A DNA stretch of 64,000 nt from Haliotis asinina (Eukaryota; Mollusca; Gastropoda; Lepetellida; Haliotidae). Shown piece by piece: positions 3,788 to 58,799 of this stretch. Every line of letters begins with the position of its first letter. Positions within the stretch are counted from its first letter, which is position 1. The stretch spans positions 40,779,501 to 40,843,500 of the forward strand of contig NC_090291.1 of assembly GCF_037392515.1 (NCBI RefSeq), in the 5' to 3' direction. The position numbers and the translations under genes were made by a program. The notes beneath the pieces were generated by a model, which ran no database searches, was not told where the DNA came from, and saw only the letters and a program-made list of their open reading frames with translations.

Positions 3788-6700
3788 TTAGAACATAAAC
3801 TCAATCATGCCAATAGTGAAGTCGTGGAAGAAGGACACGGCATCGGGTTCTGCCCCAGGGACTCTCTCGGTGAAGTTGATAATGCTGGCACCATCGACTA
3901 CAAGCTGGAACAAACAGTCCACTACATTATTTAAACATTTCCCCTTTTCTCCACATTCTACGTTGATACACATGAACAGTGGCGTCGTTTCCTTGCTTGA
4001 TATAAGACGCTACATTTTGAAAATAACAAGTTGATCGTGTATGAAGATTTAACATCTCGAAGCACTTTCACTTATGTGTCTAAACATTTACCTCGTGACA
4101 CCAAAACGCAATTTGATTTGCTGCCCCACATCAGACTTGAACAAACTCTACACACTATCGACACAATTGACGCGGGCCAATTTGTACTATTTGCTGAATT
4201 TGATTATTACTTAGATGATACGACCTGATCGAATTCGGCATACCGGTCCGAAGGGCCTACCCATGAGTTCGCCTTAAACAAATCAGCTAAGTAATCAACG
4301 AACCAGAAATCCTTTACTACTAGTGTGTATAGAGTCTGCGTATTATAAGTCCATACATTTGACTTGCCGAATAACTAGAACAGACTCTACACACTATCGA
4401 CACAATTGACGCGGGCCAATTTGTACTATTTGCTGAATTTGATTATTACTCAGATGATACGACTTGATCGAATTCGGCATATCGGTCCGAAGGGCCTACC
4501 CATGAGTTCGGCTTAAACAAATAAGATAAGCAATCAACGAACCAGAAATCCTTTACTATTAGTGTGTATAGAGTCTGTGTATTATAACGCCATGCATTTC
4601 CATACATTCATACATACGCTGTATACACCACTTTGACCGCCCCACATTAGACTTGCCAAATAACCAGGACCGACTCTACACATTCGCGACACAATCGACG
4701 CAAGTTTGTTGAATTTTATTGAGTCCGCTTTGAACCAGATTCCCGTTTGATTACTGAAGATGAATGTCTCCGAAACAGATTTCTCTGCTTGCCATACATA
4801 CCCTGTATACACCATTTTGAAGGGTTATTCCAACATCGTAATTTTGTCCAACAGCCATTGCTAGGGCGGCATGAACCTCCGAGCCCCATGTGTCATCTTT
4901 TTTCGTGTTGACAACGATCCTTCCACGGAACCCCAAAAAGTACAGACGAAATTCTGAGTAGAACAGAGAATCTGCTTGTTTCTGTACCGCAATACCAAAT
5001 CTTTGATAAAAGATAGAAAGAAATGAATGAGTTGATATTTTTGCAAGTAGAATAGGCCTTCAGCAACTCATGCTTGCCATAAAACGCGACTAGGCTTGTC
5101 GTAAGAGGCGATTAACGCAAGCGGGACACTGGATTGTCAGGTACAGACTCGATTATTTACAGACCTCCGCCATACAGCAGGAATATTGCTGAACTCACAA
5201 ACTCACTAAATGGTGGAACTACAAAACAATGTTTAAAATGTGAAAATGTGCTCATGCACAGGAATGAAAAAGGATAACATCATCAGTTGGTAAGGAATTC
5301 ATGCATCCGGATATTTATTCCACTGGGCAAAACGTTAGTAACCCAAGACTAAGTGTCAGGACAAGTGAGGCTGCATCAGAAACTTCCCACCATATGTTTT
5401 CAGAAAGAGTGCCACTGTACCGTATCTTTCCTATATATGTAGTCAACAGAATACAGTATCTTCAAAGGCAACCAGTTCTCCAATAGTGACATTCAAAATA
5501 CACTAAAATAGGAATAACAACTAATATCAAAGAAGCAGTTAAACATTTTGAAAGCATGTTCAAAGAAAAGATCAAATTTCAAAATATCCCTATTAAGCTG
5601 AATTTGTACAAGTTCATCAAATAACTACAAATGTACAAAAGTTAATGGCAAAATAAAGAAACATTTCCAACCTGATGTCAAGATTTTTCAGAAACGATTA
5701 GTATAGATCACCTTGTGTTGTTAGTAGGTGTGATGCTGACCTTCAGCTGGAACCTGCTTGAAGGATCGCACGGAAATGAATACCAGTCATTTATCTGCAA
5801 GAAACATACAGACAGATTTCTGTTAGTAGATACATAATTACAGATGTGATTTTGATGTGTAATACGGTTTGTGATTGTTTGAATCTGATTTAATTTCATG
5901 TTCAGACGATCAGAATCATTCGAGTGAAATGATATGGTTTATGTTTGTGAAAGCAGGGTCACATCTTAACATGGTATGGATCTGGAAGCTGTGTTCATGC
6001 ATGCCACAACAGATTAAACAATGAGACCAAACTATATCTTACAGGATTGTTCCACCTGAACTGTCCACAAAGACCTGCTAAACTCTCCCACGCTCCCGAT
6101 GACTGACAGGTGCTGGTGACAGTGTCGTAGCAGGCTCTGTAGTCAGGGTCACATGAGTAGGTCGCCACAGCTCCTTGGTAGTGACCATCATAGGTGGTGT
6201 TGGAGTTTTTCACACCCGGCGGATGACCACAACCCTGGAACTCTTCAGAAAGTGTATCACATTGCACCAATTAGAATACACCCAATAGGGATAAGTGTGT
6301 TTTTGTACTTTCGATCTCTCAATTTGTATGTCATGTGACTAGTTATCAACTGTTATCAAAATACCAATATCATGTAGATGTCTTCATTTCCTTCTACTCA
6401 ACATAGTATAAATTACTTATATCAATTAAAGTACAGGAAAGTCGAAGCCAACGAATTCACAGTATCGCTGACTTTAACAGATTAATGCATTAATCCTGTC
6501 ATCTATACCAAATCTCATGTCTGCCACAGGTAGATGAGACTTGGGGGGAAATAGTGGTTACCTGGAACACATCTTGCAAGACCCTGTCGAGTTACTTCAC
6601 ATCGGTCATTGTTGGGACATATCCTTTGTGCGCATTGTCCAGAGAGAGACTAGAAAGAAAACATGCCGTTCCAAATGTATAGATACACCTGTTAGTTCAA

Positions 6701-9700
6701 ACATAGGAAAATGGTCTATTTTTCGTTTAACAAGTATTTTAGTCCAAACAGTATTATTTTTTCATTCTACGCCGAAGCATCCAGTGATTTACATCATGAT
6801 GGACGCGATGAATGTATCAAAGAAGGTATGATACTGACTGATCGATCGTATACCATAGGGTAATGGGGTTACTAGTATTGACAAATCAAAGTTCTTTACG
6901 TCTTTCAGTTCCAAATCCACAAAGATGATATTCTGCGATTGCAAAGTACTACATCAGTCCAAATGTATTATGTTGAAATGGGTGTGTGAGTGAGTATGGT
7001 TTCACGCCGTTTTATTCCTGCAATTTTCACTCCTGGGGACACGAGAAGTGGGCTTCACACATTGTATCTACATAGGCAATCGAATCCTTTAACCATTAAA
7101 CTACCCCCACAGCTGCGGTTGAAATGATATAAATACTATTTCCTGTGGCTTCAGTCATCACACTTGGAGGTAAATATTGTTAGCAGCCTTGTTCTCAGTT
7201 ATATACGACAACAATAAGGTTACAACAAAAACATAACTGCATTATCTGTGCTGTTTCCTTAATTACTGTTGACAAGATAATGTCGAGATCTGTAAGATCT
7301 GACACATGGTATCATCAAACGCCCTCGAGGAGATGTAGTCTCAAAAGTCAGTTCACAAATTCAGTATCGTGTGTGCCCACCATTGGTATTTATGCAACCT
7401 TGACAATGACGACGTATAGTTAAAACTAAGCGATTGTCTGATGGTTGAGAGCACTGGTTCCGCATATACATCAACATGGATCCTAAAACCCCTTTGAAGA
7501 ACAAAGGTCACCTGAAACTGCTCAACGCACCTCCGATAGTTGAGACATCTCAGCCTGGAGAGAACTGGCAGAAAATCCTAGTGATAGAATCTCCAGATGA
7601 AAAAAATTAATTAAACTCAACCCGTTTGCTGTTTGTTTCTAAAACAATGTGTGCAGTATAGCTGGAGGCATAAAAAATATCAAGCGAGTAAGGTCTGGGT
7701 CGTTACTCATAGAATGTTGCAAACGACAACTTGCATCTAACTTGCTGCATACATTGACTGGGTTTCAGGTTTCAGAGGCAGTCCATCGGACCCTCAATGC
7801 TAGTAAAGGCATAGTCACAGACAGAGATCACGTTTTAAAAGGACATGGCAGAACATGGCAGAACTTGGCATTAAAGACGCGTGAAGGTCCCGGGGTAGAA
7901 TAGGCCTTCAGCAACCCATGCTTGCCACAAAAGGCGACTATGCTTGTAAGAGGCGACTAACGGGATCGGGTGGTCAGGCTCGCTGACTCGGTTGACACGT
8001 CATCGGTTCCCAAATTGCGCAGATCGATGCTCATGTTGTTGATCACTGAATTGTCTGGTCCAGACTCCATTATTTACAGATTGCCGCCATATAGCTGGAT
8101 TATTGCTGAGTGTGGCGTAAAACTAAACTCACTCACTCACTCGCTTGACATTAAGCTTGACGACCAAGGTGTTACATACGTGAAACGATTTCCGAGGCAT
8201 CAGAATTCATACGTGGTTCCAACCGACCCGTACCTGTTCTTATTTGTATCTCCATCGACACCAAAATCAGTAAAAGCAGGATATTGTAACCTTCAAGTTG
8301 AATTGTATATTCCCAATCTGTTGATGTGTTTTCTATGCCGAAAATGTGGTCATGGGGAAACTTCATGGTCAAACTCGGTAACTTGTGCTAACTGTGAAAA
8401 GAATGTATGCTCTCATTTGTAATCGCCAAAGTTGCTCATCGTCAAAAGATTGCCCGGTTTAGAAACGGGAAACGGAAGTAAATAAAATAAAACTTAGTCC
8501 AAAGGTTGTGCAAATTGTGCCATTAGTTTTAACTTCACATGCTAGTTTTAAATTTGAACTGTGACAGTCTAGTGTTTTACTGTCCTGACGTCCCGTGGTT
8601 CTTTAATATATACCTATTCTTTATAATCGCCAAATTTGTTCTCCAATTATCGGTATGATCAGGTGCACGTTTAACCTTTCCCCTTATCTGAAGTAAAATT
8701 ATTAGGTTTCTTTTCTTGCTGTTTTGGATACTTTTGGAATCGAGGTACATAATTCGTTCCAGGAATAGTGTTCCTTTGGCCAATCGACTGGTAATGGTAA
8801 TGAAAAGTCCTGTGCAGCAGTTTGGATTTCCACCATTTCGAAGTTGATTTCCACTAATTGGAAGAATTGTTTAATTTTAGGGGTCTCGGTTGGAGAAAAG
8901 GGTGTTTCTTACTTTTTGACTGACTTATTATATATTATTGATTAAAATTAATATCCACTTCCCTGACACGTTCATTACTGTGGCTACAAAAACTATCCCC
9001 AAGACTCAAATCACTTTAGTCCAGTGTTTAACCGTTCATTAAATATTCCCCCCAGGATAACTTGCCCAAACCAGGCAGGGAAAACGCATATCTTACTAAC
9101 TGCTCCAACTTGTGGCTGCAAGACCATGGAACGTTTTATAAATCTGATCACCTTAATACAGGTATCCAGTGTACGTTCAGACAACATTAGAGTACCATGG
9201 GTCATACAGTCAGAACAGAAATATTTATTATTAGTTTATTACCAACAGTTGTGATTGCAACTTTACTTAGCAAATTGTACTGTTTGGAAATATGGCATTT
9301 CTACATTTGATGGACCTCCGTAATCGCATGGCTGATTTTACTATTTTGTTTAGAAATTGCAAGTTGTTTACATTTATGATCGGAAAATGGGAGTTCCACA
9401 AGGACGTATTTTACCTGATACTCTTTTAACTATTAAAATCCATATTTTCATAAAATTGTAAAAACTAATGATGGGTTCCTTATCGCATATTATTCATATA
9501 TATCGTTGCTCCAGCACGAATAGCATTGAAAGACAGTTGCAACTTTCTCTAAACATGGTACATAAACGGTCACTGAGAAACTTGTAATTTGTCCAATGCC
9601 AAACCATCTAGTATCCATTTTTGCGCCAAACGTAAAATACCACTTGTGGTATTATTATCAAAATATGCCTAAGCTTCATTCAAGTGAATCTGACCCAGCT

Positions 9701-10404
9701 TTCAAACGCTTTTACATGCTGGTTTTAAATTTGAACTGTGATAGTCTAGTTGGTTTACTGTCCTTTGATGACAGGTCTTATAATATACATATTTCAGCTT
9801 TCAAATGTTTATAATTCCCGAATTATCAGCAAAGTGGAAAACGCTTTCGTTTGTGACATGTATTGAAAACATTCAGCAGCAACTTGAGCGGTAGGGGTAG
9901 TTAGTGGTTTAAGCATTCGCTTATCACACTGAGGACCAGTGTTCGATTCCCCCACATGGGTGTCCCTCGTCGTTGTGTTACTGGACCATCGTAACTCACT
10001 CACTCGGAAGCAACTAACAAAACGTCAAGTCGTATGGCAAAAATACTCCTCTGAACTTGAGCCTGTAATCAGAGAGAAAAACGGTGAGCACTAACCTGGG
10101 GCCAATGTTGAATATCACTGAAGAGAAATCCTCTTCTGGCAACAACGTCAGCAGTATCACTACTGTTACTGTTGAGTAGGCAGGTGCGTGTTTTCACGTC
10201 AAATCCAAAGGACAGACATGCTGGGGACATCATACATCCTGATGCACAATGGTAGAGAGACTGACTTGTGAACTTTCTGAACACATGTTGTTCCATGTAT
10301 ATGTCTCTTTGAACCAAAGAGTCCAAGTTCAAACAGTTATTACTGTTGACTACGTTTTTGATTCCTAAAATTAAGAGAACGAAGTGACTATGGTAAGACC
10401 ACAT
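3788..10404 (-). CDS. Copy A: secreted PAN-EGF-CCP-galectin-like protein, 6 coding exons, 331 aa
   Basis: Joined exons: 10404-10096, 6649-6562, 6242-6043, 5794-5712, 5000-4802, 3904-3788; total 996 bases ending in TAA. All donors begin GT and all acceptors end AG; intron phases are 0,1,0,2,0. Residues 1-20 are a signal peptide (core FVLLILGI). Residues 24-100 form a PAN/apple domain (C24, C53, C57, C63, C75). Residues 104-132 are a short EGF-like module (C109, C114, C120, C130). Residues 133-199 are a CCP/sushi domain with C137, C163, C178, W184, C191 and an extra C170. Residues 200-331 look like a galectin fold, with IVVNT and WGSE (W265, E268), but the sugar-binding H-x-NPR box is not conserved. 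Sequons include NSS, NTT, NNT and NFT. It is probably extracellular; ligand unknown. Start chosen at MWSYHSHF, matching the MWS start of copies B and D. The exon model is inferred from four aligned copies. Confidence 0.85.
4142..4617. repeat. Tandem duplication, about 239-base period, in copy A intron 5
   Basis: Two consecutive units share 'cacactatcgacacaattga', 'gaattcggcata', 'ccgaagggcctacccatgag' and 'atcctttacta'. A third, partial and more diverged unit follows at 4630-4720 ('ccccacattagacttgcc', 'attcgcgacacaatcgacgc'). That partial form also occurs in copy B's intron 5 at about 12790-12960, so the seed predates the A/B duplication and the expansion is private to copy A. Confidence 0.8.
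5060..5215 (+). repeat. SINE family 1, internally deleted
   Basis: Begins 'aggccttcagcaactcatgc', keeps 'gtcgtaagaggcgattaacg', jumps to 'cactggattgtcagg' and ends 'ctgaactcacaaactcact'. The central part around 'cgctgacttggttgacac' is missing. Lies in copy A intron 4, about 60 bases upstream of exon 5. Confidence 0.7.
6985..7110 (-). repeat. SINE family 2 (tRNA-derived)
   Basis: Reads 'gtgagtgagtatggtttcac', 'ggggacacgagaagtgggct', 'tcacacattgta', 'aatcgaatccttt' and 'aaccattaaactaccc'. On the minus strand the last part is a tRNA-like head with A-box-like 'tagtttaatggtta' and B-box-like 'ggattcgatt'. Lies in copy A intron 1. Confidence 0.65.
7475..9800 (+). mobile_element. Decayed Jockey-like LINE (ORF1 and RT fragments)
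   Basis: Non-LTR retrotransposon remnant in copy A intron 1. ORF1 begins near 7476 (MDPKTPLKNKG) and continues in pieces (ILVIESPDEKN; IKNIKRVRSGSLLIECC; AVHRTLNASKGIVTDRD). After a nested SINE it resumes (GVTYVKRF, KSVKAGYCN, VELYIPN) into a CCHC knuckle, CFLCRKCGHG, whose final cysteine is replaced. Reverse-transcriptase pieces follow: CKTMERFIN near 9120, MGVPQGRILPDTL near 9388, and NSIERQLQLSLN near 9520. Several frameshifts and stops separate these pieces and much of ORF2 is missing. The family is recognised from recall of ORF1/ORF2 motifs common in molluscan LINEs. Confidence 0.7.
7874..8146 (+). repeat. SINE family 1 copy nested in LINE ORF1
   Basis: Complete family 1 copy from 'gtgaaggtcccggggtagaa' to 'ctaaactcactcactcactc'. 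Imperfect target-site duplication: 'cttggcattaa' on the left and 'cttgacattaa' on the right. It interrupts LINE ORF1 between the VTDRD segment and the GVTYVKRF segment, so it arrived after the LINE. Confidence 0.8.
9893..10005 (+). repeat. SINE family 2 (tRNA-derived), plus strand
   Basis: tRNA-like head 'agttagtggtttaagcattc' (A-box-like), then 'gtgttcgattcccccacatg' (B-box-like), ending 'gtaactcactcactcgg'. The copy is shortened between head and tail. It is not a functional tRNA gene: there is no closed acceptor stem. Confidence 0.7.
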
Positions 10405-11710: not shown

Positions 11711-11790
11711 CGTGTCGTAATACGGCAACCATTACGTTTATAGCCATAACCTAATGACGTACATATAGCCATAACGTAACTATTTATATA

Positions 11791-11793
11791 CAT

Positions 11794-11825
<32 letters not shown>

Positions 11826-11956
11826 GTGTATGTATGTGTGTGTATATGTATGTGTGTGTGTGTGTACGTATGTACGTATGTATGTATGTATGTATGTATG
11901 TATGTATGTATGTATGTATGTATGTATGTATGTGTGTGTATGTATATATATATGTA

Positions 11957-12013
<57 letters not shown>
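11791..12013. repeat. Compound microsatellite (GT)n-(GTAT)n-(GT)n
   Basis: About 220 bases of TG dinucleotides flanking a block of 14 or more TATG tetramers at about 11865-11930, with a second pure (TG) tract at 11960-12011. The long open frames across it are artefacts of repeat periodicity. Confidence 0.97.
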
Positions 12014-12014
<1 letters not shown>

Positions 12015-12125
12015 GAACTCTTGGGCGCTACCATCGTCCCTATCACATCGATCAACAATTAGAAATCAGATATTTGTGTAGCGACTCAGGTGTCTCTAAT
12101 TGAAAAGGTAGTCTGACTCCTATAG

Positions 12126-12495: not shown

Positions 12496-15400
12496 TCAGG
12501 ACATAAACCAGATCATGCCAATAGAGAAGTCGTAGAGGAAAAAAAGCTCATCAGGTTCTGCACCCGAGGCTCTCTCCGGGAAGTTGATAATGCTGGCACC
12601 ATCGACCACAAGCTGGAACAAACAGTTGCATTACTTGAACATTTTCTTTTCGATACTTGAAAGCAACGGAAACTCAACAGTCTACAGTGATGCATATTAT
12701 CATTGAAAAATTGAGGGATGGTAAGGAGCTACTGCGAAAATGTATGACGTTGATCATCCATGAAGAGTTGTTATCTCGAAGTAGCTTCGCGTTTCTGTGT
12801 AAACCACGTGATACCAAAACGCAATTTGATAGACAGCCCCACATCATACTTGCCAAATAACCAGGACCGACTCTACGCCCCACATTAGACTTGCCAAAGA
12901 ACCAGGACCGACTCTACACATTCGCGACACAATCGACGCAAGTTTGTTGAATTTTATTGAACCAGATTCCCCGTCTGATTACTGAAGATAAATGTCTCCG
13001 AAACAGATTTCTCTGCTTGCCATACATACCCTGTATACACCATTTTGAAGGGTTATTTCAACATCGTAATTTTGTCCAACAGCCATTCCTAGGTTAGCAT
13101 GCACCTCCGAGCCCCAGTTTGCATCTATTCTCGTGTTGACAACGATCTTTCCACGGAACCCCAAATAGTACAGGCGAAATTCTGAGTAGAATAGCATATC
13201 TGCTTGTTTCTGTAGCGCAATACCAAATCTTTAATAGAAGAATAAATAAATGAGTTTTACAGTGGTGGAACTGCATAACAATTTCAAAGATTTGAAAAAG
13301 TGCTCATTTGCAGATATGAAAAAAGGATAACATCAGCTGGCATGGAATTCATGTATCCAGATATTTGTTTCACTGGGCAATACTTGAGTAATCCAAGTGT
13401 CCTGATAAGTGAGGCTGTATCAGAAATTCCAGTTTTATGTTTTCAGAAAAAGTGCCACTGTACCGTATCTGTCCTGTGTAGTCCACAGAATACAGTATTT
13501 GCAAAGACAACCAGTTCTCCAATAATAATCTTCAAATATTGTCACTAAAATACGAATACAAACTAATTTCGAAAGAAGCAGTTAAACATTTTGAAAACAT
13601 AGTCAAGGGAAAAGATCAAAATTTATAATATCCGGATAATGCTGAATTTGTACAAGTTCAACAAATAAACACAGATTTACAAAAATTAATTGTAAATCAA
13701 AACCTACTTTTCGATCCTCATCTAGATTAATATTGATCACCTTGTATATTTAGTAGGCGTCAAGCTGACCTTCAACTTGAACTTGCTTGAAGAACCACAC
13801 GGGAATGAAAAAATGTCATTTATCTGCAAGGAAAATAAAGACAAAATTCTGTTAGTAGATACATAATTACAGATATGATTTTGATGTGTAATATGGTTTG
13901 TGTTTGATTGAATCTGATTTAAATACATGTCCAAACGATCAGGATCACTTGAGTGGGAGAAACAGAATTCACTGAATTGATGCGTTTTATGGTTGTGAAA
14001 GCAGGGTGTCATCTTACTCAGTATCAGGACACGGTATGGAGATATTAGTAGGTGTTTTCATGTAGGCCACAAAAGATTAAAAACTGAGGCCAAACTATAT
14101 CTTACAGGATTGTTCCATCTGAACTGTCCACAAAGACCTGCTAAACTCTCCCACGCTCCAGATGACTGACAGGTGCTGGTGACAGTGTCGTAGCAGGCTC
14201 TGTAGTCAGGGTCACAGGTGTAACTGGAGTAGGTAGCTACAGCTCCTTGGTAGTGACCGTCATACATGGCATGGGCGTCTCTTACATTCGGTGGATGACC
14301 ACATCCCTGGAACTCTTCAGAGTGAGTGAGTGAGTGAGTTTAGTTTGCGCGGCACTTAGCAATATTCCAGCTATATGGCGGCGGTCTGTAAACAATCGAG
14401 TCTGAACCAACCAATCCCGTGATCAACAGCATGAGCATCGATCTGTGCCATTGGGAAACGATGACATGTGCCAACCAAGTTGGCGAGCCTGACCACCCGA
14501 TCCAGTTAGTCGCTTCTTACGACAAGCAGATTCCCCTGACTCTTCAGAAATATAACATAGCCTTGAATTGCAATCCAAGCCATTAAGTATTTTTGAGCAT
14601 TCGCACTGTCATTGTTTATGCAGAGAATTCAATCTGATTTCAGCCATGTTTTATTTTCTAAATATTATCTTCGCCTTCGGTCCGCCGATATCAAATGCCC
14701 TTTTTTAAAACAAAAGGAGTTCAATTTTTTTTTACCCCAGCAGTTATTAGCATTTTAAATGAATGTTTATTTTGTCTGCCTATTACGTTGTTTCGTGTTT
14801 TCTTAACCTTCGTGTAATTTTTAATAATTACTTATGTGTACACTTTCAAATACGAAAATGATTACCCTTGGGGTAATAAAGTATTGTCATTGTTATTGGT
14901 ATAATCATTGTCATTCCAAGTCTTACGTCAGCATTGGTACAACGTCTCAAGGGAATGATTATTTTTTCATACCATTCTGACACTTCATTTCTTTCTATTG
15001 CACATAATGTAAATAACGTAGATCAGTTTACAAGAATTTACACTATCTATCTCTAACTGGACGTTTGAATAAACATGCTCTTTTGGGCATGTGCCAAAGG
15101 TGCTTGACTCTTTGGATATAACATTGGTTACCTGAAACACATCTTGCGAGACCCACTCGAGTAACTTCACATCGGTCGTTGTTGGGACATTTATTTTGCG
15201 CGCATCGTCCAGAGAGAGACTATGAAGAAAACATGCTGTTTAAAGAAGTCATTCAGAAACCAGATGTATGACACATCTGTAAGTTCAGAAATCAGACAAT
15301 TGGCACAATCGTGCAATAAAGTACACCTCTTTATTCAGCGACATTTCGTCATTACACCTGGAAATAGTATGTTCTGCACTACTCATTCAGAGATGGACAT

Positions 15401-18400
15401 AATTTCATGACCATGTTGCAACCCTTAATTTCATGAATTCATATATGGTAAAACGCCTCCAAACCTTTAGTCATGCTGAATTTGTCATTCATTTCTTTCT
15501 ATTTAATGTTACGAGTGTGTATTTTCTGTATATTTTGTTAGTAATTCAGTAGTAATTATTATTGGGTCACAATGTTTAGTGTTTTGAATAATAATTATGA
15601 TGGGTCACATTTCGTTTTAATAGCTGGTCAACACTTTTAGGATTCTGGTTTTCCGGAACTTATCTGCTCCTAGTTTTCTATGTGTTTACTTCCGGGAGAC
15701 TTATTCGAGGGCATTCTACAGTGTTGACGATGTTAGTTTGTGCCCAAACTTTCGGGAAATGACTTAGTATATATAAAAAGGCTGGTTCCCGTGTTGAGGG
15801 CGACACTCATTCATATTAACTGGAGGATATATTACCGCCAACGCTTTATCATTAAAACCTGTCAACGCCTGACCTACATTATCCGCTGTCAGACAGATCA
15901 CTGTGACATTCTGCATAGTTGATTACCTTTCGTACTGAGACTTTGGTGAGTTTGATATATTATGTTTTTGTGACCCATTGTCTCTCTTGAATTGTATTTG
16001 TAATCAGCATTGTGAAACTGACTTGCAACTTTGTATACTTTGCTCTCGCTGCATAATAATACATAATTTGAACGTTTATGACTTGTCTTTGTTCTGTTTT
16101 GCTGGTTCACAAGAGGATTTCTTACATAGTTTATGTATATTTGTGTACGCTTGGATTATTCAAAACTTCCAGCCAATGATGTTTAATCTCTTTATATGCT
16201 GGCAGCTGCAATGAACAGAACCGTAGCAATTAAGAGCCACCAAATCATCTGGGTAATCCAAAATTATTGTCCCGTTTTACTCCGTAGTTAATGCGGATAT
16301 CGATATTTAAAAACACACCATCATAAGGGAAAGCTAGGGAGATGAGAATACCATATTTGCGATCCGAGTGCTGATCTCTAATAGAAGCAAGTCTGTATTA
16401 GACGAATTAGTGGTTATCGCGATGCTCTTGAATTCTGCTTCACTTGCCAAATCATCTCACGTCCATCTCACTAAATTTCTTAATTTCCTCAGGTGCCTCC
16501 AACGAACGATGCCTTTTAAAATGCTTCTCCTCTCAGTCGGATATGTTTACTTCTTCTACTTTTGAATTACATCTTTCGGTGAATTGGCGCACTCTATTAC
16601 TCTGATATTATGAGTCTACATCGGAACAGGGCGGTGGGACAGCCCAGTTTGCTTGTCACGCAGATTTGATTTCACACATTGGAAACCAGATTGTATATTT
16701 GTGATTAGGTGTTGAATTGAGCCCAATATACGGTCAAGTCTTTGAAGGGCATTTAGAAGTGAAATGCATAAGTATAAAGATTTTATGGATATCAACTTCT
16801 TTATATGAGAACACGTTTCGGAGTTAATGCTTACTGGTAAAACAATAACAAAGTAACAAGAGGAATGACTTAACGAAAGCTGGAAGCCAGTATAAACAAG
16901 CGCTGATTGGAAACCGACAGTTATGATAACAATGATAGAAGCCAATGGTAATACATTACAGATGATGGGATATGTTTACATAACACAGGTAGGGGGTAAG
17001 GACGATGTACATGATAAGGGAAAAGGATGGAAGCCAATGGTGGATGATGTTTACATAACACATGATTGGAGATTAAGGATGATGTACATGACTGCATGAG
17101 GGTTGATGGGCATGTTTACATGGGGGTTGATGATGTACAAACACAAGTAGATAAGGACGTACACGGGTAGATTGGCTATGCATGAATTACACAGATAGAA
17201 TGTACACAGATAGATGAGATTAATTTATCAATAAGTCCCAGGCACTTGGTAGGTACACTCCTTGGTCACGGTTGATTGCTGGTTTCTCTCTCCGGATCTC
17301 GATGGCTTCTAGCAGTTTCCTTTGGCGCCAGTTGTTGTTGTTGGTAGATAGTATCCTAGTGTCCTCTCATCGGATTGAATGTCCAGGGTTCTTGAGAATG
17401 TGTTCAGAGATGGCCGATTTCTTGTCGAGTTTGCTGACAGAGGTCTGGTGTTCCTTCATTCTGGTGTTGATTGGTCTCAGCGTTTCTCCAATGTATAGGT
17501 CGCCACAGTTGCAAGGGATCTGGTAGATGCATCCTCTCGGGTTAGGGTGTTCACAGCTGGGTCCTATACCGTTGGCTTTTAGGTAGGTCTTGATGGTCTT
17601 GCCACTGGAGAAGGTGACAGCATTAACTCCGAAACGTTGTGTTCTCATATAAAGAAGTTGATATCCATAAAATCTTCATTCTCAATAGACGGCCAGTTAT
17701 TTTAGTCATGCTTCTGGGTGACATAATTACACACCTGCGTCACCCCATGATGCAAATTTATAGACTATTGTGGACCCCCATGTCCCCATAATGAAGGAGA
17801 CCCCTGACGACGATGATGCAGAACATTCTGAAACCTATGACTCATGACCCAGGTGTGTTACCTGGTACAGTCATGTAGAAAGTTCTTGAAGGTATGATGT
17901 CATTTGGGAGGTAAGCCATATGAGGCCCCGAAAACAGTTTGTGGCATGCTGATCTCAGTCGCCAAACAAAACGTACATTATCGAGAAAACACAAACCTCC
18001 TTTGACCTTGTCAGTGAACTGTTGTTCATCTTACCAAGGCGGGGACCAGAAGCTTACACCTTTTGTGAAGCTTTGGAGGAATGTGGAGAGACAGAAGCCA
18101 TGACATTGTTGAGTTTTGACATTCCTACTGACAAGACAGGGCTACAGAATCCTCATTGTCATCTGGACTTGGGAGCTGATGCATGCAGATACCATGACAT
18201 GTGTATGAACAATACCCCTCCTCAAACGAGATTCCAAAAACGGTTGAATTTCTTTCAGTTTTGGCCTGTGCACATGAAATGGTGTCCCAAGCCAAATGGT
18301 CCAGGCAGGATTTGCGAACTTAATTAGAGGGGATGCTTACAAGTGTTTTCAATGTGGTCTCGTTCTCAGAAACTGAAGACAAGACCTGGATCGAACATGA

Positions 18401-24945: not shown

Positions 24946-25084
24946 CACCAAAAACATTTCTTTTTGCCCTAATACGCAAGTTATATAACTGATAATGACA
25001 TATTTTTGAAATCTGTTTGCTAGAATATCACAGTTGCAAATTTAACACTAGCATGTGACTTAAATGTACATACTATTTAGGACG

Positions 25085-25230
25085 CTACAAAATAGAATTA
25101 GGCTTTAGATCACCAGCACCTGGTAAGAGCAATACACTTGGGACCGTGGGAACAGTGCTTTTGCTACCTGCATTGAAGCAAACTGGATTTACACGATCCT
25201 TTCAGCAGTTGGAGACTGTAGTGAAGATTA
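25085..25230 (-). repeat. Family 3 repeat fragment
   Basis: Matches the family core: 'tagatcaccagcacctgg', 'gggaccgtggga', 'acagtgcttttgctacctgc', 'ctggatttacacgatccttt'. Confidence 0.55.
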
Positions 25231-36740: not shown

Positions 36741-36744
36741 ACTT

Positions 36745-45000: not shown

Positions 45001-48000
45001 GCATAACGGTGCCGACCAGGTCAGCAGCCCTCAAGTTTAGGTCGCTGGAGACCTATTCTAACCTGGAACTTCATGCTTTGTTATAGGGGAGTAATTGTAT
45101 ATTTAGTAATACTAATATCATTCTGAAGTATTCATTTCTCTAAGAATAGCACAAGAGGGTGTTCAGGTACACCATTTTGAATGGTGTCAACTTTGTGACC
45201 TAACCTTTCTACTAAACGAAGTACCTACTGCATCTATGCATTTCATACAGTAATATATTGGTTACCTGGAGCACACCTTCCAGGGCCAAGTCGAGTTACT
45301 TCACATCGCGAGTTGTTTGTACATACCCTCTGACTACAAGGTCCGGAAAGAGCCTAGAAGGAACATTTATACATTTAAACATTTATGACACAGTAACAGT
45401 ACTGTGGAATGCATTGATGGAAATCCTAACCCTTCAATAGAAATGGATGGGTACGATGTGAATGCCCAATGCATACCTTCATATCAGAACGTGATCACGA
45501 CTAAGAGCACAGTTATATGGCATGAAGCATGCTTGTTCCATTTTTGCTGCCACGTGTATTTGGCGTGTTACCAAATAATAGGTTTTAGGTCAGTTTACTG
45601 ACATGTACTGCGTGATTCAGACTTACAAGTGAGGATTTAGCTGCAGAAATATTCCGTAATACCAACATGAAAAGGTGGAGGGCTAATAGCATATCCTAAT
45701 ATCCAGCTCATTTGAGCTGTTCAAAGGTGTTTCTTTTCTCCCTCGACCACTGGATGTCAAACTCCAACTGCACATCGTATGAACAATCTTAACTCGCTAG
45801 GGAACATATAGTTAATGTGACTTTCCCATCCGGAACTTATGACTAGTCGTTACTAGTCGTCATCATTAATAACTGTGGACGCTTTGTCTACACTCTTTGA
45901 CGCTTTGTCTCCAGTCTTGATACAGGCGCTAACTTAGATTGAGAGTATGATATCCTTATGGACTCATCAAAGCAAGCAGTGACGTACTTTTACGCCACTT
46001 TTAACAATCAGAAATGATCTTCACACAACCAGGGTCTTCGGCAAGGCTAACAAACGCCTTAACCACAAGGCTAACTTACCGACCCATCGTAGTAAGTAAA
46101 GAAAAGTAAGTATTCATTAATTCAGCTTCATGTCAAATATGAACAAGGATCCGTCGAAATTCTCATAAAAGATTCATGACTGTTGATGTTTAATGGTAAA
46201 AATCATTTGTTGGTGATCTATAGCCTGTTTATATAGCATTGTTATGTTTAGAAATCAACTTCTAGAGATATATGCTAGTTTTTTTTTAAAATGGGTATGT
46301 TTGACATTCTAATTGTTTTAATGTTGTTTGAAAACTGGTATGAATAAATGACCTTTCTCTTTCATAAATTCATGATTTTTTCACTCACTTATGCTAAAAG
46401 GTACGACTGATAAAATATTGCCTTGAGGGCTCCAATTTTCCTGGCTATGAATTTCGGATCATGTGGAACCCGTTGAACATGTCATTCTAACATTCGTGTT
46501 GCAAAATCAACCATACGGACACATATTCCCGCATCGTGAAGGTCATTCAACACGAAACAGCTATTTGATGTACCATGCCTTTTCTCCAAATTCAGAATGA
46601 CCCATGCAACTTGAAAGGTCTCCAAACTGATCAGATAATCGACGGTACTCCTTTCGTTTACAATCCTTCTCTGAATGTCTTTGATCAGATCATTTGATTT
46701 TCGAAACTGAACACGACATCTGGTTTGTTCTAGTCTATTCATGAGTCTTATTAATTTTTGTGTATATTTTCCACTAACTTATTTGCAAATCTATTTTGAT
46801 ATCAAGATGCCATTGTTTGATTGTAGATGCTGAAAACTGCATGTAGAATTCTTTTTTATTCAATCTCGCCATATGATCGTAAGACGTTTAAGGCTATATA
46901 CTTTGGAAACAACCTTTTTCCAGCTTGTATGTGTATTTTGCTCAATCTGTTATTGTTCTTTGAGCTTGGATGAGTCTGGTTGTTTGACGTGTGATGTTTA
47001 GTAAACATTTTTCTTTGTTACTTAGCACGTCTACGTTACCAAATCGTCATTATGCCAAATGGTTCTTACGTGTGATTTTGTCGTTAGCTTTTACATGAGA
47101 CTTGCTTTCGCTCTTCAAATACGTTGTGAAACAACTCGCCATTGACTCTCGTTTAGTAATCTTTATATACATAGATACCACGCCCAAACACGTTATATGT
47201 CCATAGAAAAACATCGATCAGATCATGCTTCATGGTAATAACATCCATGATGATCTGGGGTAAAATCGATCTTAAGTAACCATGAAAGTACCCATGGTCC
47301 CTAGTATGGTGATCTACCTTCAGTTGTTGGCGATCTATAGCCTGTTTTATGTTGTATCGTCCGCTAAAGTTAAAGTATTTTAGATTTCATTGCTAGTTTT
47401 AATTACATATCTGTGATATTATTTTACTGTCCTTTGTCGACAGATATTTTAAATTGATACCCTTCTTTTCATCGCTATATGGCTGTAATATTGCATATGC
47501 GATGTAGACGTTTAGCTCACTCACTCTTTAGCAACCAGTGCTTATGGTAAGAGGCGACTAACGAGATCGGGTGGTTAGACACGCTTACTTGGTTGACACA
47601 TGTCATCGTATCCCAGATGCGTAGATCCGTGTTCATGCTGTTGATAACTGGATCGTCTGGCTCAGAGTCTGTTATTTACGGAACACCGTAGAAATATAAA
47701 CTCACTCACTCAATCATATTAGTAAGAGTGATTGACGTGTCATTCTTTATTTCGTGTATTATGTAAGACAGGTCACTTTTCAAAACTACCAATAACAAAA
47801 TGTAAGATTTAGACCAGGTCATAATAGCCAATCAAAGATTGAATGGTACTTTTATAGTTTTATGAAGACACTAATGCGAAACCAAAACATCTTGTTTAAT
47901 TTGCAACAAGACGAGTCGGGTTCTCACGCCAGGTTTTTAATGTTTTAAGATCATTCTTAAGTCTGGAGAAATTTGAAACAGTTGACATTTCTAAAATGTT

Positions 48001-48441
48001 TCTTTCAAAGAATGGCTTTCAGTTCCTTTGCCTTTATAAACTGGAAAGATCTATTGAGAAACTTTTGAAAACGTTTCCTAGCAACAGAGGTAAGTATGAT
48101 TAGTCATAACAACTGTCAGTACCAACCTGTGGCCAGTGTTTAATATCACTGAAGAGGAATCCCGTTCTGTCAACAACGTCAGCACTATCACTACTGTTAA
48201 TGTTGAGTAGGCAGGTGCGCGTTTTCTTCTCAAATCCAAAGGACAGACATGCTGAGGACATGAGGCATTCTGATGCACAGGTGTAGAGAGACTGACTCCA
48301 GAACTTTCTGAACACCTGATGTTGCATGTACTTGTCACCCTGAACTGCAGAATCGACGTCCAAACAGATGTCACCACAGACCAACTTCATGACTCCTAAA
48401 ATAAGTAAGACCACTTCTCTACTGTAAAACCATATTTTCAT
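39048..48441 (-). CDS. Copy C: secreted PAN-EGF-CCP-galectin-like protein, 6 coding exons, 336 aa
   Basis: Joined exons: 48441-48127, 45353-45266, 44806-44607, 41841-41759, 40252-40054, 39173-39048; total 1011 bases, in frame, ending TGA. The start differs from other copies: the usual ATG-TGG is ATA-TGG, so an upstream ATG (MKIWFYSREV) is used. Signal peptide core VVLLILGV. The PAN domain is well kept (YTCASECLMSSACLSFGFE). EGF-like: CSQRVCTNNSRCEV. CCP: CGHPPDV ... YSC ... STC ... GLWESLAGLC. The C-terminus is three residues longer (LVLNNS). The galectin-like exon 5 is the most diverged: where A and B have NWGSE, it has RRSGL, so the WGxE motif is gone, although the DGASIYNFTE strand pair remains. 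Ligand binding, if any, is likely altered. SINEs lie about 10 bases past the exon 5 donor and in the flanks. Confidence 0.85.
39845..40045 (+). repeat. SINE family 1 abutting the exon 5 donor of copy C
   Basis: Reads 'gtacgaggcgactaacggga', 'gctcgctgactgggttgaca', 'gctcatgctgttgatgcctg', 'aatattgctgagtgcggtgt' on the plus strand. In the gene direction the SINE tail end begins about 10 bases after the GT of the donor at 40053. Confidence 0.8.
42560..43090 (+). repeat. Degenerate tandem repeat, about 140-base unit
   Basis: Units share 'tttccaaggaaacatg', 'tgtcatcttgtcc', 'gagcagatctc' and 'atcaaacttg'. Two well-matched units (about 42585-42730 and 42745-42880) are followed by two poor ones. 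In copy C intron 3. Confidence 0.7.
43195..43400 (-). repeat. Family 3 repeat fragment
   Basis: Contains 'aactgtcaacgaaggacagt', 'gatggtagatcggcatactt', 'gggaccatgaggatttacac' and 'tgcttttgtc'. Confidence 0.55.
44126..44440. repeat. Direct repeat pair, about 60 bases, 240 bases apart
   Basis: 'ctaagaaagtgaaatcccaa' and 'atatgacatatgttgca' occur at about 44130-44180 and again at 44376-44425. Between them, 'gtggctgcgtggactagacg' looks like a tRNA-type A-box region, so a further SINE head may be present. Confidence 0.55.
45610..47245. other. Copy C intron 1: no gene recognised
   Basis: A family 3 scrap lies at about 46190-46235 ('tttgttggtgatctatagcc'). A minus-strand frame at 46482-46742 (IQRRIVNERSTVDYLISLET) is of unknown type and may be repeat-derived. 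Confidence 0.35.
47250..47525 (+). repeat. Family 3 repeat, opposite orientation
   Basis: Reads 'tggtccctagtatggtgatc', 'taccttcagttgttggcgat', 'ctatagcctgttttatgttg', 'tactgtcctttgtcgacaga', 'atatggctgtaatattgcat' and ends 'gctcactcactc', i.e. the reverse of 21812-22110. It gives the best view of the family's CTCA tail. Confidence 0.7.
47528..47715 (+). repeat. SINE family 1 copy
   Basis: 'gtaagaggcgactaacgaga', 'cttggttgacacatgtcatc', 'gttcatgctgttgataactg', ending 'ataaactcactcactcaatc'. Directly follows the family 3 repeat in copy C intron 1. Confidence 0.8.
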
Positions 48442-50544: not shown

Positions 50545-51155
50545 CACACACACCAAGGGCAAGGTTGCACAGCAGTCAGTATCTTGTGTGGCCACTATTA
50601 ACATCATTGGCCGCTTGGCATCGGCGTCCCATAGACTGGGCCAGACTCCGGATGAAGTGCCTGAGAATGAGTTGGTACTCTTCCCTCAAGGCCACAAACA
50701 GAGCAGGTAACGTCTGTGGCTGAGGGTCACGCTGACGCTGTCGCACCCGACGATCCAATTCGTCCCACAAGTGTTCAGTAGGGTTAAGATCCGGTGATCG
50801 TGAGGACCAGTCAAGAACCTGATCGTTGTTCTGGGTAAGGATATCCTTGTTTATTCTTGCTGTATGCGACCGAGCGTTATTATGCTGAAAAATGACGTTC
50901 TGGCGGTTCATGAAAGGAAGGACATAAGGCCATGATGATTTTATCACGGTAACGTCGAACTGTCAAGTTGCCCTGGACCTGAATGAGATCTGTCCTGTCA
51001 CTGTATGAGGTGCTAGCCTAAACCATGACACTATCACCACCAAATCTGTCCACTTCCTGTGCACAGTTCGCAAAGTAGCGTTCGTTACAACGCCGATTTA
51101 CACGCGCTCCTCCGCTGGGATGTCGCAGCATGGAACGTGACTTATCACTGACTCA
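50545..51155 (-). mobile_element. Tc1-like transposase, C-terminal two thirds
   Basis: Minus-strand pieces in order: SMLRHPSGGARVNRRCNERY, VQGNLTVRRYRDKI, VIFQHNNARSHTARI, VLDWSSRSPDLNPTEHLWDE, and a C-terminus MGRRCQAANDVNSGHTRY. These are the central and last catalytic blocks of the Tc1 family. In the QHDNA block D is N, and an in-frame stop falls in the MVWAG segment, so it is inactive. The 5' part is missing where the LINE begins. Confidence 0.9.
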
Positions 51156-53085: not shown

Positions 53086-54727
53086 GTCAGTTAGGCCATG
53101 AACTCCATCATACGAACAGTGACAGCACCACCAAAGTATATGTGGGTAGGCATTGCCCCCGGGTCTCTCTCGGTGAAGTTGTGAGTGCTCGCACCATCGA
53201 TTTCAAACTGGAACAAGCGTCACAAGAGATGACAAATCTAACACATATTTGATAATTTGATACACGTACATATAATCATCAAGTATTACAAAAGTCAAAA
53301 TCAGTGAAGTTATAGCCAACAACTACATTTCTGTTAAATTCCAGATTAGGAAGTGGTATTTTGAAGAAAAACTGATTTTTCGGGGAGCTAAGCCATAATC
53401 GTCAACTGATTCAAAGTCAGACTTGTTGCCATGATAACACGAAAAATGAGAAGATAAAATTGTGTCCAGGGACACGGATGCCCCTGCTGTTGTACGAACA
53501 AAAATAAATAGAAAAACAAGAAAAAACCCAAAAGCAAAACAAAACCCAAAAAAAATTAGAGATCCACCCAATTAGAGTCAAAAGGAAAGAAAACTGAATT
53601 CCACAGAATTTTTTTGTGGAAAAATGGGTGGTGCAAATTTCCTTTTTCGTACAGACAGACATGGAGGCTATCCTTATATGTCCCCTGCCATATATGGCGA
53701 TGGCATAAACATTCTCAAAAGAAACCAGCTGACAACTTGATTGTCTGTTAAGTTTTATGAAGTCAAAGGATCATACGGATCGTATTGAAATCCTATCAAA
53801 CAGACATTGGTTGCTTAATTAAGTTCTCCCCATATATGTTCTTAATATTGACTTCCCCAGTATGTAGTGTTCCTTATGACAAAGACAGTCATTTCAAATA
53901 CACAACACACGGGTTCCACTATGCTAATCTCCAGTTACCCCACACTGAAATAGAAATATTTTCTATATCCTCTGTATACCTTCACCAATGTGCATGGCCT
54001 TATACACTGGTCTGCAGTTTCCATTCTATGTATAGATCCGTTATTGTCTACAGTTTACGCGCAACTGCTAATTTAACTATGTATCATCATCAGTGCTTGT
54101 CGTTTACATTCCATACATACCCTGTATTCTCCATCCTGTAAGGTTATTTGAATGTTCATTGTTTTTCCAACAGCCATCGCTACATCGAAACGCTCTTCTG
54201 TCCCCCAAACATAATTTAACACAGTGTTCATGACGACCACGTTCCTTTCCCCAGCATAATCTAAGCGAAACTCACAGTAGAAAAGTGTGTCAGCCTGTTT
54301 CATAATCATGAGAGTCCATCTGTAAATGAATAATAGAAGAAATGAATCAGTACATACTTATACACTACTTCAACTATATAATGTAACAAATTTCGTTAAA
54401 TGTGCTTGTCGAAATCTTGCCTTCATGACACTGAATGCACTCGTTACATCCGTGCACATGCCTGTATAACATATGACAGGTTAGTTATGAAACGTTTAGC
54501 TATTTGGTGCTTGTAGTTATCCATTGCCAAATATATTCTAACGTGGCCCATCCGTTGACTACTCATTGTTTTTTGCGGCCATCTTTTGAATTAATATCAA
54601 TTTCTGAAACGATTTCTGTTCTGTCACTTATCTACAGACGCGGGTTGAAATAAAGAATTAAATGTGCAAAATATTATACAACATGACGAATTTAAGTCTT
54701 ATCAGCATTAAGAAGTTAATGTAGATG

Positions 54728-54890
54728 ACCAAGACATTTTATGGATGAAGCTTCTTTATTCTTTCCGCACAACATTTCGGAATCATTACAGACCCCTTCA
54801 TCAGATGAAGTCAGATGATGAAGAGATCTGTAATGATCCCGAAACGTTGTGTGGAAAGAACAAAGAAGCTTAATCTAAAAACATCTTGGT
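54728..54890. mobile_element. 163-base near-perfect hairpin with two opposed hammerhead-like motifs (Penelope-related)
   Basis: Arms of about 80 bases run from 'accaagacattttatggatg' inward to 'cttcatcagatgaag' and back out to 'aaaacatcttggt'. The minus strand of the left arm has CTGATGA, a G-rich/CC spacer and GAAA (54773-54804), the core boxes of a hammerhead ribozyme. The right arm has a degenerate form on the plus strand ending 'cccgaaacgttgtgtgg'. Hammerhead motifs are known in Penelope-like element ends. Lies in copy D intron 4, about 50 bases downstream of exon 4 in the gene direction. Confidence 0.65.
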
Positions 54891-55678
54891 CATGACGAAT
54901 TCAGCAAATCCATGCATTATACACAGCCAGCATTCTTTACTTTGTAGCTTCTGTCGCCTCTGCATGGAGTATCAGCAAGAAATTGCTTGGTGGACCACAC
55001 GGAAATGAATATATGGCTACACCCTGCAACAGACATACCATCACAATTCATAATTCTCTGTTTCTTTAGTACAGAAGTATCTTGATGTGCATGATTGCTT
55101 GTGTAGGGTTAATGATGATTTAATTTCACAAATGGCAATTGGTAAAATGATGGGAATCACTGGAAAAGTAGAATTCAGACTGATAGCTAAATTTGAATGT
55201 TGCGCTATTTGACAAGCCACGTTAAGCTAAGCCGTGTCAAGGAAACAAGCTTGACAATCAGTTAAGCTGGGTACGAGCCTCACTTAAAATACGCACTTGT
55301 AGTCTGTGTTCATATATACCATAACAGTGCAAGAGCCTGAAATATTTAGACGAAATTTATTTCTCACCGGATTCTGCCACCTGTACCGTCCACAAAGACC
55401 GGTTAAACTCTCCCACACTCCAGGTACTGGTGACATTGCTATGGCAGGCTCTGAAGTCAGGGTCACAGGAGTAGGACGCCACAGCCCCTTGGTAGTGACC
55501 ATCGTACATGATGCTGGCACCACGAACACCCGGGGGATGACCACACCCTTGGAACTCTTCAAAAAATACATCACATACCTTAAAAAGTTAGAATGCCTGT
55601 CAATATGTCATCAATTGTGGTTTGGAAACACATTCTCTCATCATGTACGTATTCCACCTGGTATCAACTTTGACAGGA

Positions 55679-55955
55679 GTGAGTGAGTGAGTGAGTGAGT
55701 TTAGTTTTACGCCGCACTCAGCAATATTCCAGCTATATGGCGGCGGTCTGTAAATAATCGAGTCTGGACCAGACAATCCAGAGATCAGCAACATGAGCAT
55801 CGATCTGTGCAATTGGGAACTGATGACATGTGCCAACCAAGTCAGCGAGCCTGACCACCCGATCCCGTTAGTCGCCTCTTACGACAAGCACAATCGCCTT
55901 TTATGGCAAGCATGGGTTGCTGAAGGCCTATTCTACCCCGGGACCTTCACGGGGT
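55679..55955 (-). repeat. SINE family 1, full-length reference copy
   Basis: The best-preserved copy, from the (GAGT)n run through 'cgccgcactcagcaatattc', 'tatatggcggcggtctgtaa', 'gatcccgttagtcgcctctt', to 'tctaccccgggaccttcacg'. Exact 12-base target duplication 'actttgacagga' at 55667-55678 and 55956-55967. In copy D intron 2; one of the younger insertions. Confidence 0.95.
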
Positions 55956-56330
55956 ACTTTGACAGGAAATCAAAGTGGCAAAAGGCCTCATGGGAATGAT
56001 TTTCAAATAGCATTTTCATCTCTCCAGGAATGATAATATGTGCAGAACGGCACAAGGAGGTGTTCACTCTCAACTGCTGATTCTAAGAAACATTGCGGTC
56101 TTACCATTTTACCCATACTTAGCATCTTTACACTGCATCCGCGTGTGATATCAGCAGTCTCTGGGAATGTTATTCTATTGCAGAAAAGTAATTATTTCTT
56201 TGTCAGTATACAAATCGGCAACGCGGTAGAGCAACTAGTCCAAGTCATGCACAGTACCTCCAACTGGGACCATGCAAACATATCTCCCTGAATGCATCTG
56301 CCAAAGGTAGCTGAGGAACTGAAATAGGGA

Positions 56331-56541
56331 GTGAGTTTAGTTTTACGCCGCACGCAGCAATATTCCAGTCTGTAAATAATCGAGTCTGGGCCAGACAGTC
56401 CAGTGATCAACAGCATGAAGATCGATCTGCCCGATTGGAAACCGATGACATGTGTCAACGAGGTCAATGAGCCTGACCACCCAATCCCGTTAGTCGCCTC
56501 ATACGACAAGCCAGCATGGGTCGCTGAAGACCTATTCGGAA
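56331..56541 (-). repeat. SINE family 1 copy next to the exon 2 donor of copy D
   Basis: 'gagtgagtttagttttacgc', 'gcagcaatattccagtctgt' (with the ATATGGCGG segment deleted), 'gtgatcaacagcatgaagat', 'cgtcgctgaagacctattcg'-type end. It ends only about 20 bases from the donor at 56560. Confidence 0.85.
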
Positions 56542-56759
56542 CTGGAATAACATTGATTACCTGGAAAACACCTTGCAAGACCCAGTCGAGTTACTTCACA
56601 GTGGGTGTTGTTCTGACATGTCATTTGAGCGCATCGTCCAGAGAGAGACTGGAAAGAACAGAGTTCATACACCAAACAGATAGATTCTTTCAAAAACATT
56701 TTTTGTATTGTCGTTGTGTACTGTAACATAAATCCAACGACGAATGGACTCATGTCAAC

Positions 56760-57570
56760 CTTCAGAAAAATGGTTTTATGTTATTTTGCCTTTGACAGCA
56801 ATGTTTGAAGTACACAATCGCATCATGACCTACTATAAAATGTAGTTACCATGTCCTTAAAAACTGACCAATCGATTCAGAAAGATACCCCTTAGAGGGG
56901 TAGTGGAGGAAGCCTGTTACAGATCAGTTCGATCCCGCAACTCTCTATCCAGGTAAAACATAATTCTATGGCTGAACGCATGGCAAGCATGCTGGCATTA
57001 TTAAAGGAGACATACCTCTTATCGTTGTTTTAACAAAGCAGACCTATTTCCACTTAACAACAAAATAATTTATGATTTTTCTTATTTGAAGAGCACCAAA
57101 CATCTGCACTAATGCACTTTAGTGTCTGGCATTCCTTGATGACCACTTTTTCAAACAAGGTAACTGTTGGTTTAAAGTCATGTAACATTCACAGAAACGT
57201 AAGTTTTCTCACACATCCCACATTATTTATAATTTCAATCAAATATATACGCGGAAATGCATCTATGTCTACAACGAAAGCAACAAAACCCTATCCACAT
57301 CCACTTGTAATATCTGATGAAAGGAGAGTCGAGTGTACATTCCTGACTATCATAAGCAGGTGCCGATGAATCGCTATTAGTGATGATATCAGGTGTTCAC
57401 AAAAAAGGTGAACATATTCTATCCCATCACTGACACATGGGTTAGATGCTCACCTGAAAACATTCGGAAACACATGGTTAACGCGACAATAGGGAATTGT
57501 ATCCGATATAAAAGTTTTCACCGATGCATCAAATTTTAATGTCCGTCACATATCTACCATATACCGTTTT
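56760..57570. other. Copy D intron 1: nothing recognised
   Basis: No recognised repeats or coding motifs; overlapping open frames are short and motif-free. Confidence 0.4.
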
Positions 57571-58799
57571 GAAAGATTTACTGAGGCCTTGTTGTAACAG
57601 AGGTCCTTGAATATATACCAGTGATCGAACAACTACTGAGGAAAAGTCGTTTGACGCTCTTTGAATTCTTAATAAAGATATCATGCTCGATTGTTTTTCG
57701 AATGCTGTGAATGAAAATACCCAATTTGGAATATATCGGAAATAGAAGGAACGTTGACTGTTGGAAAGTAGAAATCATTCTTCTTTTTTTGATATTGCCT
57801 TGTGGATATATTATTTGGTACATTTGATGTTCTGTAAGTGTATTTAAACGCGAAATACATGAATAAGTGAGTAAAGATTTAGAGTCACATCGGCAGTGAC
57901 GGATAAATATTAGATAATGTGTTTTACAACTTTCAGGAACTGGACAGCACTTTCTTCTGCGATAAATATTGACGACATTAAGGACACGATGACCTGTAGT
58001 TAATGAAATGTCAGCAACTCCAACCTTTGGCCAGTGTTTAACATTACTGAAGAGGAATCCTGTTCTGTTAACAACGATGACAGTATCGCTACTGTTACTG
58101 TTGAGTAAGCAGGTGCGCGTTTTCTTCTCAAATCCAAAGGACAGACATGATGAAGACATGAGGCATTCTGATGCGCAGGTGTAGAGAGACTGACTCCACA
58201 ACTGCCTGAACACCTGATGTTCCATGAACTTGTCGCTGTGAACTACAAAATCCACCTCCGAACAGTTGTCACCACTGAGTAACTTCGTGATTCCTAAAAT
58301 TAGCAGTACAAGTTTGCAATAGAAAGACCACATTTTCCCAGCCTGGATCTTCAACAGTCAAGCTGCTACTGGCACCCCTTACGTGCATTAACACTGCCAA
58401 CAGCAACGACTGTTAATGGCGTATATGAAGTGAGTATGTGTTTTAGCTGGGAACATCAGTAAAATAAACAACCTCTCTGTAATCTTTACCTCCACGGCAA
58501 TCAATATACCGCAAGGCATATCTTGTGAATCGGTTTGCATTTGTGAGAACATACCCAAACATCCACAAGCAGGATAAAAGAATCTTTAAGCTCAAAGTAC
58601 TTCTTTAACAGAAATCGAAAATGATTTCTTTGCAGCACATTTGATATCAATCCACGTTATAGATAATGCATCAATATAGATTTTCAAGACAGAGACGAAA
58701 GATACCCAAGATCGATGTTCTAAAAAATAATCATCTTTCGGCATGTAGACCCTTTGATTAGCTTGGTTAGTAGAAACAGGGAGACCATTCAGTATGTAC

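Follow-up and report, generated by a model that had tools for sequence, protein, structure and literature searches.

Gene array in the window

The window, i.e. the whole 64 000-nucleotide stretch of Haliotis asinina DNA analyzed here (C12:40779501-40843500), was searched together with the genome that contains it (1.14 Gb in 159 contigs). Repeat analysis and blastn comparison between segments located four gene copies in a single orientation on the minus strand between positions 3788 and 58333. The gene models and the features discussed below are as follows.

Copy D: 3788-10404, minus strand; exons 10404-10096, 6649-6562, 6242-6043, 5794-5712, 5000-4802 and 3904-3788; 331 amino acids, open
Copy C: 12496-23824, minus strand; exons 23824-23519, 15219-15132, 14314-14106, 13823-13741, 13228-13030 and 12612-12496; 333 amino acids, open
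Copy B: 39048-48441, minus strand; exons 48441-48127, 45353-45266, 44806-44607, 41841-41759, 40252-40054 and 39173-39048; 336 amino acids, open
Copy A: 53091-58333, minus strand; exons 58333-58025, 56648-56561, 55556-55368, 55023-54941, 54319-54121 and 53207-53091; frame broken
Copy D exon 1: 10096-10404, minus strand; hydrophobic leader and PAN domain
Copy D exon 3: 6043-6242, minus strand; CCP/Sushi domain
Copy D exon 5: 4802-5000, minus strand; middle exon of the galectin domain (VVNT..WGSE)
PAN-exon relic with stops: 37134-37350 (approximate), minus strand; genome match C12:40816662-40816853 with two TGA and one TAA

The four six-exon copies proposed in a preliminary description of this DNA were confirmed by these models, as were their consistent intron phases (0-1-0-2-0 in all four), and GT..AG borders are present in all 20 introns of the splicing predicted from sequence. 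The exon lengths reported there hold: exons 2 (88 nt), 4 (83 nt) and 5 (199 nt) are of one length in every copy, exon 3 measures 189/200/209/200 nt in A/B/C/D and exon 6 117/126/117/117 nt. The frames of B, C and D are open with the sole stop at the end. The broken frame of copy A had been overlooked: compared with B and D, 11 nt are missing from its exon 3, which disrupts the frame and brings stops into exon 5. Copy A is therefore a probable pseudogene, although its galectin exon, read in a frame of its own, is open. Beside the PAN relic, no blastn match to exons 2-6 was found in 24500-37400. Going by the models and the stops, three copies of the array are thus coding and the fourth is a probable pseudogene, with the relic in addition. 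In the 1500 nt that follow the stop, no poly-A-type hexamer occurs in A, and the first lies at 860, 1053 and 145 nt in B, C and D, respectively; these hexamers are little informative.

The whole-gene dN/dS values are 0.42-0.50 in all six copy pairs (exon 3 of copy A left out). For the genes as predicted, these values, the three six-exon open frames and an exon order that recurs on other chromosomes confirm a gene family beyond chance.

Other elements were also observed in the window. By eye, the ORFs at 34865-35617 (plus strand), 50579-50962 (minus) and 63561-63953 (minus) resemble pieces of mariner/Tc1-type transposases; the first two sit between gene copies and the third beyond the array. 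An ORF in the first intron of copy C (17370-17675, minus) contains a YIG-like stretch, perhaps a piece of a retroelement endonuclease, again by eye. A long simple-repeat array with several open frames lies between copies C and D (11736-12051).

Putative leader, PAN, linker and CCP

Pfam profiles were scanned against the proteins of B, C and D, and hits were reported at E values up to 10. The PAN domain claimed in the preliminary description was recovered in all three proteins, with PAN_1 (PF00024) scoring 26.6 bits (5.4e-6) in B, 33.1 (5.1e-8) in C and 30.1 (4.2e-7) in D against a cut-off of 21.4. The claimed CCP domain was likewise found, with Sushi (PF00084; cut-off 20.7) above the cut-off in B (20.8 bits, 5.2e-4) and D (22.5, 1.5e-4) and just under it in C (18.0, 0.004). 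The EGF-like domain was not borne out: exon 2 has four cysteines rather than six, and no EGF model matched in the full proteins at E up to 10 or in exon 2 alone up to 1. The cysteine pattern of exon 2 may instead be described as half-EGF-like, resembling how an EGF module begins. The N-termini of the translations, judged by eye, are hydrophobic, as for a leader peptide. No weight was placed on the structures predicted for the PAN exon and for exon 5 alone, each from the four window sequences, as their mean pLDDT values were poor (40.1 and 49.3, respectively).

The CCP exons 6043-6242, 14106-14314 and 44607-44806 encode five cysteines versus the four usual for CCP. Exon 4 of the same genes also bears a cysteine (FPC/VPC), and an inter-domain disulfide is possible.

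Identity and origin of the galectin end

Gal-bind_lectin (PF00337; cut-off 22.1) was above the cut-off in C (37.2 bits, 2.4e-9) and D (37.8, 1.5e-9) and just below it in B (20.0, 5.1e-4). A search of PDB sequences with copy D (E up to 1; 119 sequences) also matched galectins. The top match was a two-domain galectin-9 (3wv6; 2.8e-7, summed over stretches of 0.0018 and 1.9); the next two galectins reached about 1e-5 on one stretch, and the best single stretch was that of 7xxu. The best 60 of the 119 matches were inspected and were galectins, some galectin-10 chains standing under older names, except for a putative fiber protein (4.2e-5) and a Seizure 6-like chain matched on the CCP part. The PAN, CCP and galectin calls thus all hold by profile search, so that the lack of significant domain matches that would have refuted the preliminary description was not observed.

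Ordinary galectins form two clusters in this genome, at C8:48539608-48547338 and C8:57740584-57793227 (L009-L017, L033, L034). The borders of their middle CRD exon are an acceptor that leaves a single base ahead of F-x-I/V-N and, following the same strand, a donor in phase 0; they were found in six of the seven ordinary C8 exons (all but L009) and in all four window copies. Among 18 dispersed galectin exons, both borders were present in eight and the acceptor in 13; the borders of the ordinary and dispersed exons are candidates, and in the ordinary L011 and L016, where another AG had a richer pyrimidine tract, the choice was made by position. Because the galectin end shares its exon borders with ordinary galectins, the domain most likely came in with the exons that encode it.

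Changes in the binding face

The galectin search of the genome gave 31 matches, and residues were counted in the seven ordinary, 18 dispersed and four window exons. L012 (a near copy of L011), L035 (which is copy A), L017, L033, L034 and one further match (last-exon type) were left out. Residues are numbered as in human galectin-1. In the alignment, the HxNxR motif is intact in six of the seven ordinary exons versus none of the 22 dispersed and window exons. Asn46 is replaced in 21 of these 22, by Glu in all four window copies, and is retained in a single dispersed exon (L038), near which no CCP was found. However, Trp68 is retained in 20 of the 22 (17/18 dispersed and 3/4 window) and Asn61 in 18 (15/18 and 3/4), arguing for a preserved binding face, whereas in copy B Asn61, Trp68 and Glu71 are all replaced. 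Given the loss of Asn46 and of an intact HxNxR motif, plain lactose-type sugars are probably not bound in the standard way, and altered glycans or proteins may be bound instead. The galectin resemblance proposed earlier holds as a domain identity, although the changed sugar-binding motif had been overlooked.

Dispersed relatives in the genome

The protein of copy D has at least 122 matches in the genome (121 of 408 candidates scored). The locus map was drawn from 105 of these 122, the galectin matches and 21 of 148 PAN matches. Left out were 16 matches that run from PAN to CCP in a long frame and a weak one to exon 4; stops occur in some of the mapped matches, and the broken match at C1:44787016, which spans PAN and CCP, was scored as CCP. 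As read from this map, PAN, CCP and galectin exons stand in order on one strand at at least 15 loci, including the four in the window. Galectin exons were also found in the 5 kb downstream of three of five further PAN-CCP pairs and not in that of the other two, and there was no strong hit at nine additional loci, whose flanks were short. In total, at least 18 ordered same-strand loci lie on C1, C2, C5, C6 and C12, 14 of them outside the window, and some are not intact. The expansion claimed in the preliminary description is thus seen within this genome, in tandem copies and in dispersed loci.

A same-strand CCP exon lies within 12 kb upstream of 22 of the 27 non-C8 galectin exons (18 of the 23 outside the window), copy D exon 4, labelled CCP in the map, being excluded from this test. 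The mean under random placement was 0.007 and the maximum one in 2000 trials, with the contigs taken as 16 equal ones and the 12-kb limit fixed after the map had been inspected. A CCP downstream within 12 kb was found for six of the 27, as tandem neighbours, and an opposite-strand CCP within that distance for none; no CCP was found within 12 kb upstream of any of eight ordinary C8 galectin exons. The five galectin exons without a CCP found nearby are all among the 18 dispersed ones.

Relatives ending in GON

Several genome matches of copy D run from PAN into CCP in one long uninterrupted frame. The long ORFs of L070, L071, L072, L076 and L077, as well as L085, were scanned with Pfam profiles; L074, L075, L078 and L086 were left out.

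L070, C1:96198201-96200000: PAN_1 (1.6e-7) and GON (9.9e-32), no Sushi
L071: PAN_1 and four Sushi; the stretch is cut at one end, and GON was found at this locus only by the genome-wide GON search (1.3e-11)
L072, C1:63001701-63003500: PAN_1, two Sushi and GON (7.5e-16)
L076, C10:1158801-1160300: PAN_1 and GON (1.8e-20), no Sushi
L077, C8:22019401-22020900: Sushi and GON (5e-14); PAN_1 just below the cut-off (20.0 bits)
L085, examined without its front: Sushi and GON

In the Pfam scan of the first five, PAN_1, Sushi and GON were above the cut-off in four, three and four ORFs, respectively. In one GON-ended relative, EGF_CA also scored, below the cut-off (0.0017; 19.0 bits versus 27). GON is otherwise the end domain of ADAMTS9/20 and GON-1, and GON proteins without a protease part would be of interest. 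A search of the genome for the domain, with all 131 of 131 candidates scored, gave 86 matches, which do not equal genes. The long-ORF genes align with copy D from PAN into CCP, but GON replaces the galectin end and the coding stretch is one ORF. Since front and GON are joined in single frames, this genome does use the PAN-to-CCP front with an end other than galectin. The single architecture given for the family earlier, PAN to CCP and galectin, stands for the window, but the GON-ended relatives had been overlooked.

Divergence among the copies

In exon 5, dN/dS is 1.04 for B-C, 0.81 for B-D and 0.76 for C-D; in pairs with copy A it is 0.19-0.34, at dS values of 1.58-2.48, near saturation. Exon trees were built from 12 rows. 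In the galectin tree, an A+B clade was rejected (p-AU 6.5e-5) and a B+C+D clade was supported (86/100). The PAN tree grouped A with B (support 59/19) and did not reject B+C+D (p-AU 0.385). Exchange of exons is not shown by these trees, as the PAN tree is too weakly supported and B+C+D is compatible with the PAN data. Synonymous divergence differs between exons 1 and 5 in A-B (3.6e-5), A-C (5.0e-5) and A-D (0.0013; Fisher p on rounded counts) and is alike in B-C (p = 0.66) and B-D (p = 0.54), while C-D leans in the opposite direction (p = 0.095). This uneven divergence along the gene suggests that its history is mosaic or that the galectin exon of copy A is older.

Comparison with known proteins

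Galectins are usually described as leaderless. Compared with ordinary galectins, including those on C8, with which they have the PF00337 match and the borders of the middle CRD exon in common, the window copies have PAN and CCP behind a hydrophobic, leader-like N-terminus, a single CRD and a HxNxR motif that is not intact. Lophotrochozoan galectins are generally tandem-repeat and those of rotifers are without a signal peptide (PMC8878817), while slug galectins are without a leader (PMC4795696).

Among known gastropod proteins, GREPs, which consist of a leader, IgSF and galectin, are secreted, as the window copies probably are, and similarly modular with a C-terminal galectin; one is described in Biomphalaria glabrata, where such proteins are variable immunoglobulin lectins, and none was found in B. 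pfeifferi (PMC10075465; PMC9334734). They are given as confined to Heterobranchia (PMC8878817). A GREP has one or two IgSF domains, whereas no Ig family was among the Pfam matches of B, C and D at E up to 10; a survey of Aplysia immune genes cautions that programs have difficulty in detecting domains of this kind (PMC9334734). B. pfeifferi has one leader-bearing galectin, BP09483, and C-type lectins with an Apple-like domain (PMC10075465); compared by description, the former is without PAN or CCP and the latter end in a C-type lectin, unlike the window copies. In H. laevigata, shell-matrix proteins (idb_982 and the CLC_3878 group) are secreted, as is probable here, and bear Sushi and galectin annotations in one protein, but have several chitin-binding domains, FA58C or fucolectin, and PAN is unlisted in the part of the source available (PMC6003135). 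Neither a secreted combination of Sushi and galectin nor an Apple-like domain in a lectin is therefore new in itself. The sea-anemone work has no such domain combination in its available part (PMC12549020). The literature searched contained no description of a PAN-CCP-galectin protein and nothing relevant on GON; neither the order PAN, half-EGF, CCP and galectin nor a front common to GON ends was found in it.

Discussion

The modules, their order and exon borders, the changed motif and the expansion are read directly from the DNA. We consider it likely, with a probability of about 0.6, that they represent a secreted recognition family in which a PAN-linker-CCP scaffold carries an altered galectin end and which has grown by duplication, its function being judged from sequence. 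If spliced and expressed as predicted, each intact copy would consist of a leader, PAN, a four-cysteine half-EGF-like linker, CCP and a single galectin-type domain, and would probably be secreted. The PAN-linker-CCP part would most likely serve as a scaffold for protein binding or oligomer formation. The galectin end would provide the ligand-binding face, for modified glycans or proteins rather than plain lactose-type sugars. Growth of the family would have involved tandem and dispersed duplication, loss of copies and perhaps patchy gene conversion. The function would most likely be soluble extracellular recognition or agglutination, as in defence within haemolymph or mucus; alternatively, the proteins might act in shell or gametes.

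Some observations run counter to this reading. The eroded site of copy B and its exon-5 dN/dS (1.04 versus C and 0.81 versus D) fit decay equally as well as new binding. Furthermore, copy A is frame-broken, two of the five PAN-CCP pairs have no galectin exon in the 5 kb downstream, and for five of the 27 galectin exons no CCP was found nearby.

The strongest alternative, which we regard as rather unlikely, is that these proteins have a structural role in the matrix of the shell, of mucus or of the egg coat, with a galectin end that is non-binding or matrix-binding and variation that reflects drift. The absence of an intact HxNxR motif from all 22 exons, the loss of the core site in copy B and the secreted Sushi and galectin proteins with chitin-binding domains in the H. 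laevigata shell-proteome table, in its available part (PMC6003135), are in keeping with such a role; however, no chitin-binding family was among the Pfam matches of B, C and D, and the frequent retention of Trp68 and Asn61 speaks for a binding face that is preserved. Gamete or self-recognition proteins diversified by selection would account for the tandem copies and for the exon-5 dN/dS of 0.76-1.04 among B, C and D, but whole-gene values of at most 0.50 in every pair and loci spread over several chromosomes make this improbable. It is scarcely credible that separate interleaved PAN-linker-CCP and free-standing galectin genes were wrongly joined by the models: the exon joins are predicted only, introns between the parts reach several kb and for five galectin exons no CCP was found nearby, but the same order and strand recur at 14 or more loci outside the window, no opposite-strand CCP lies within 12 kb of any of the 27 galectin exons, B, C and D stay in phase as far as exon 6 with a stop at the end only, and the long-ORF relatives join the same front to another end in one frame.

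A broader proposal accompanies the reading as a secreted recognition family. The PAN-halfEGF-CCP front might be a common scaffold for at least two ends, galectin-like and GON, in a large secreted recognition set paralleling FREP/CREP/GREP without immunoglobulin; we advance this only tentatively, judging it somewhat less probable than its opposite. If real, a large secreted galectin branch with a rewired face, on a scaffold that GON ends share, would provide a non-immunoglobulin modular lectin set for snail immunity or extracellular biology, and its changed galectin sites would offer a natural series for testing shifts in specificity.
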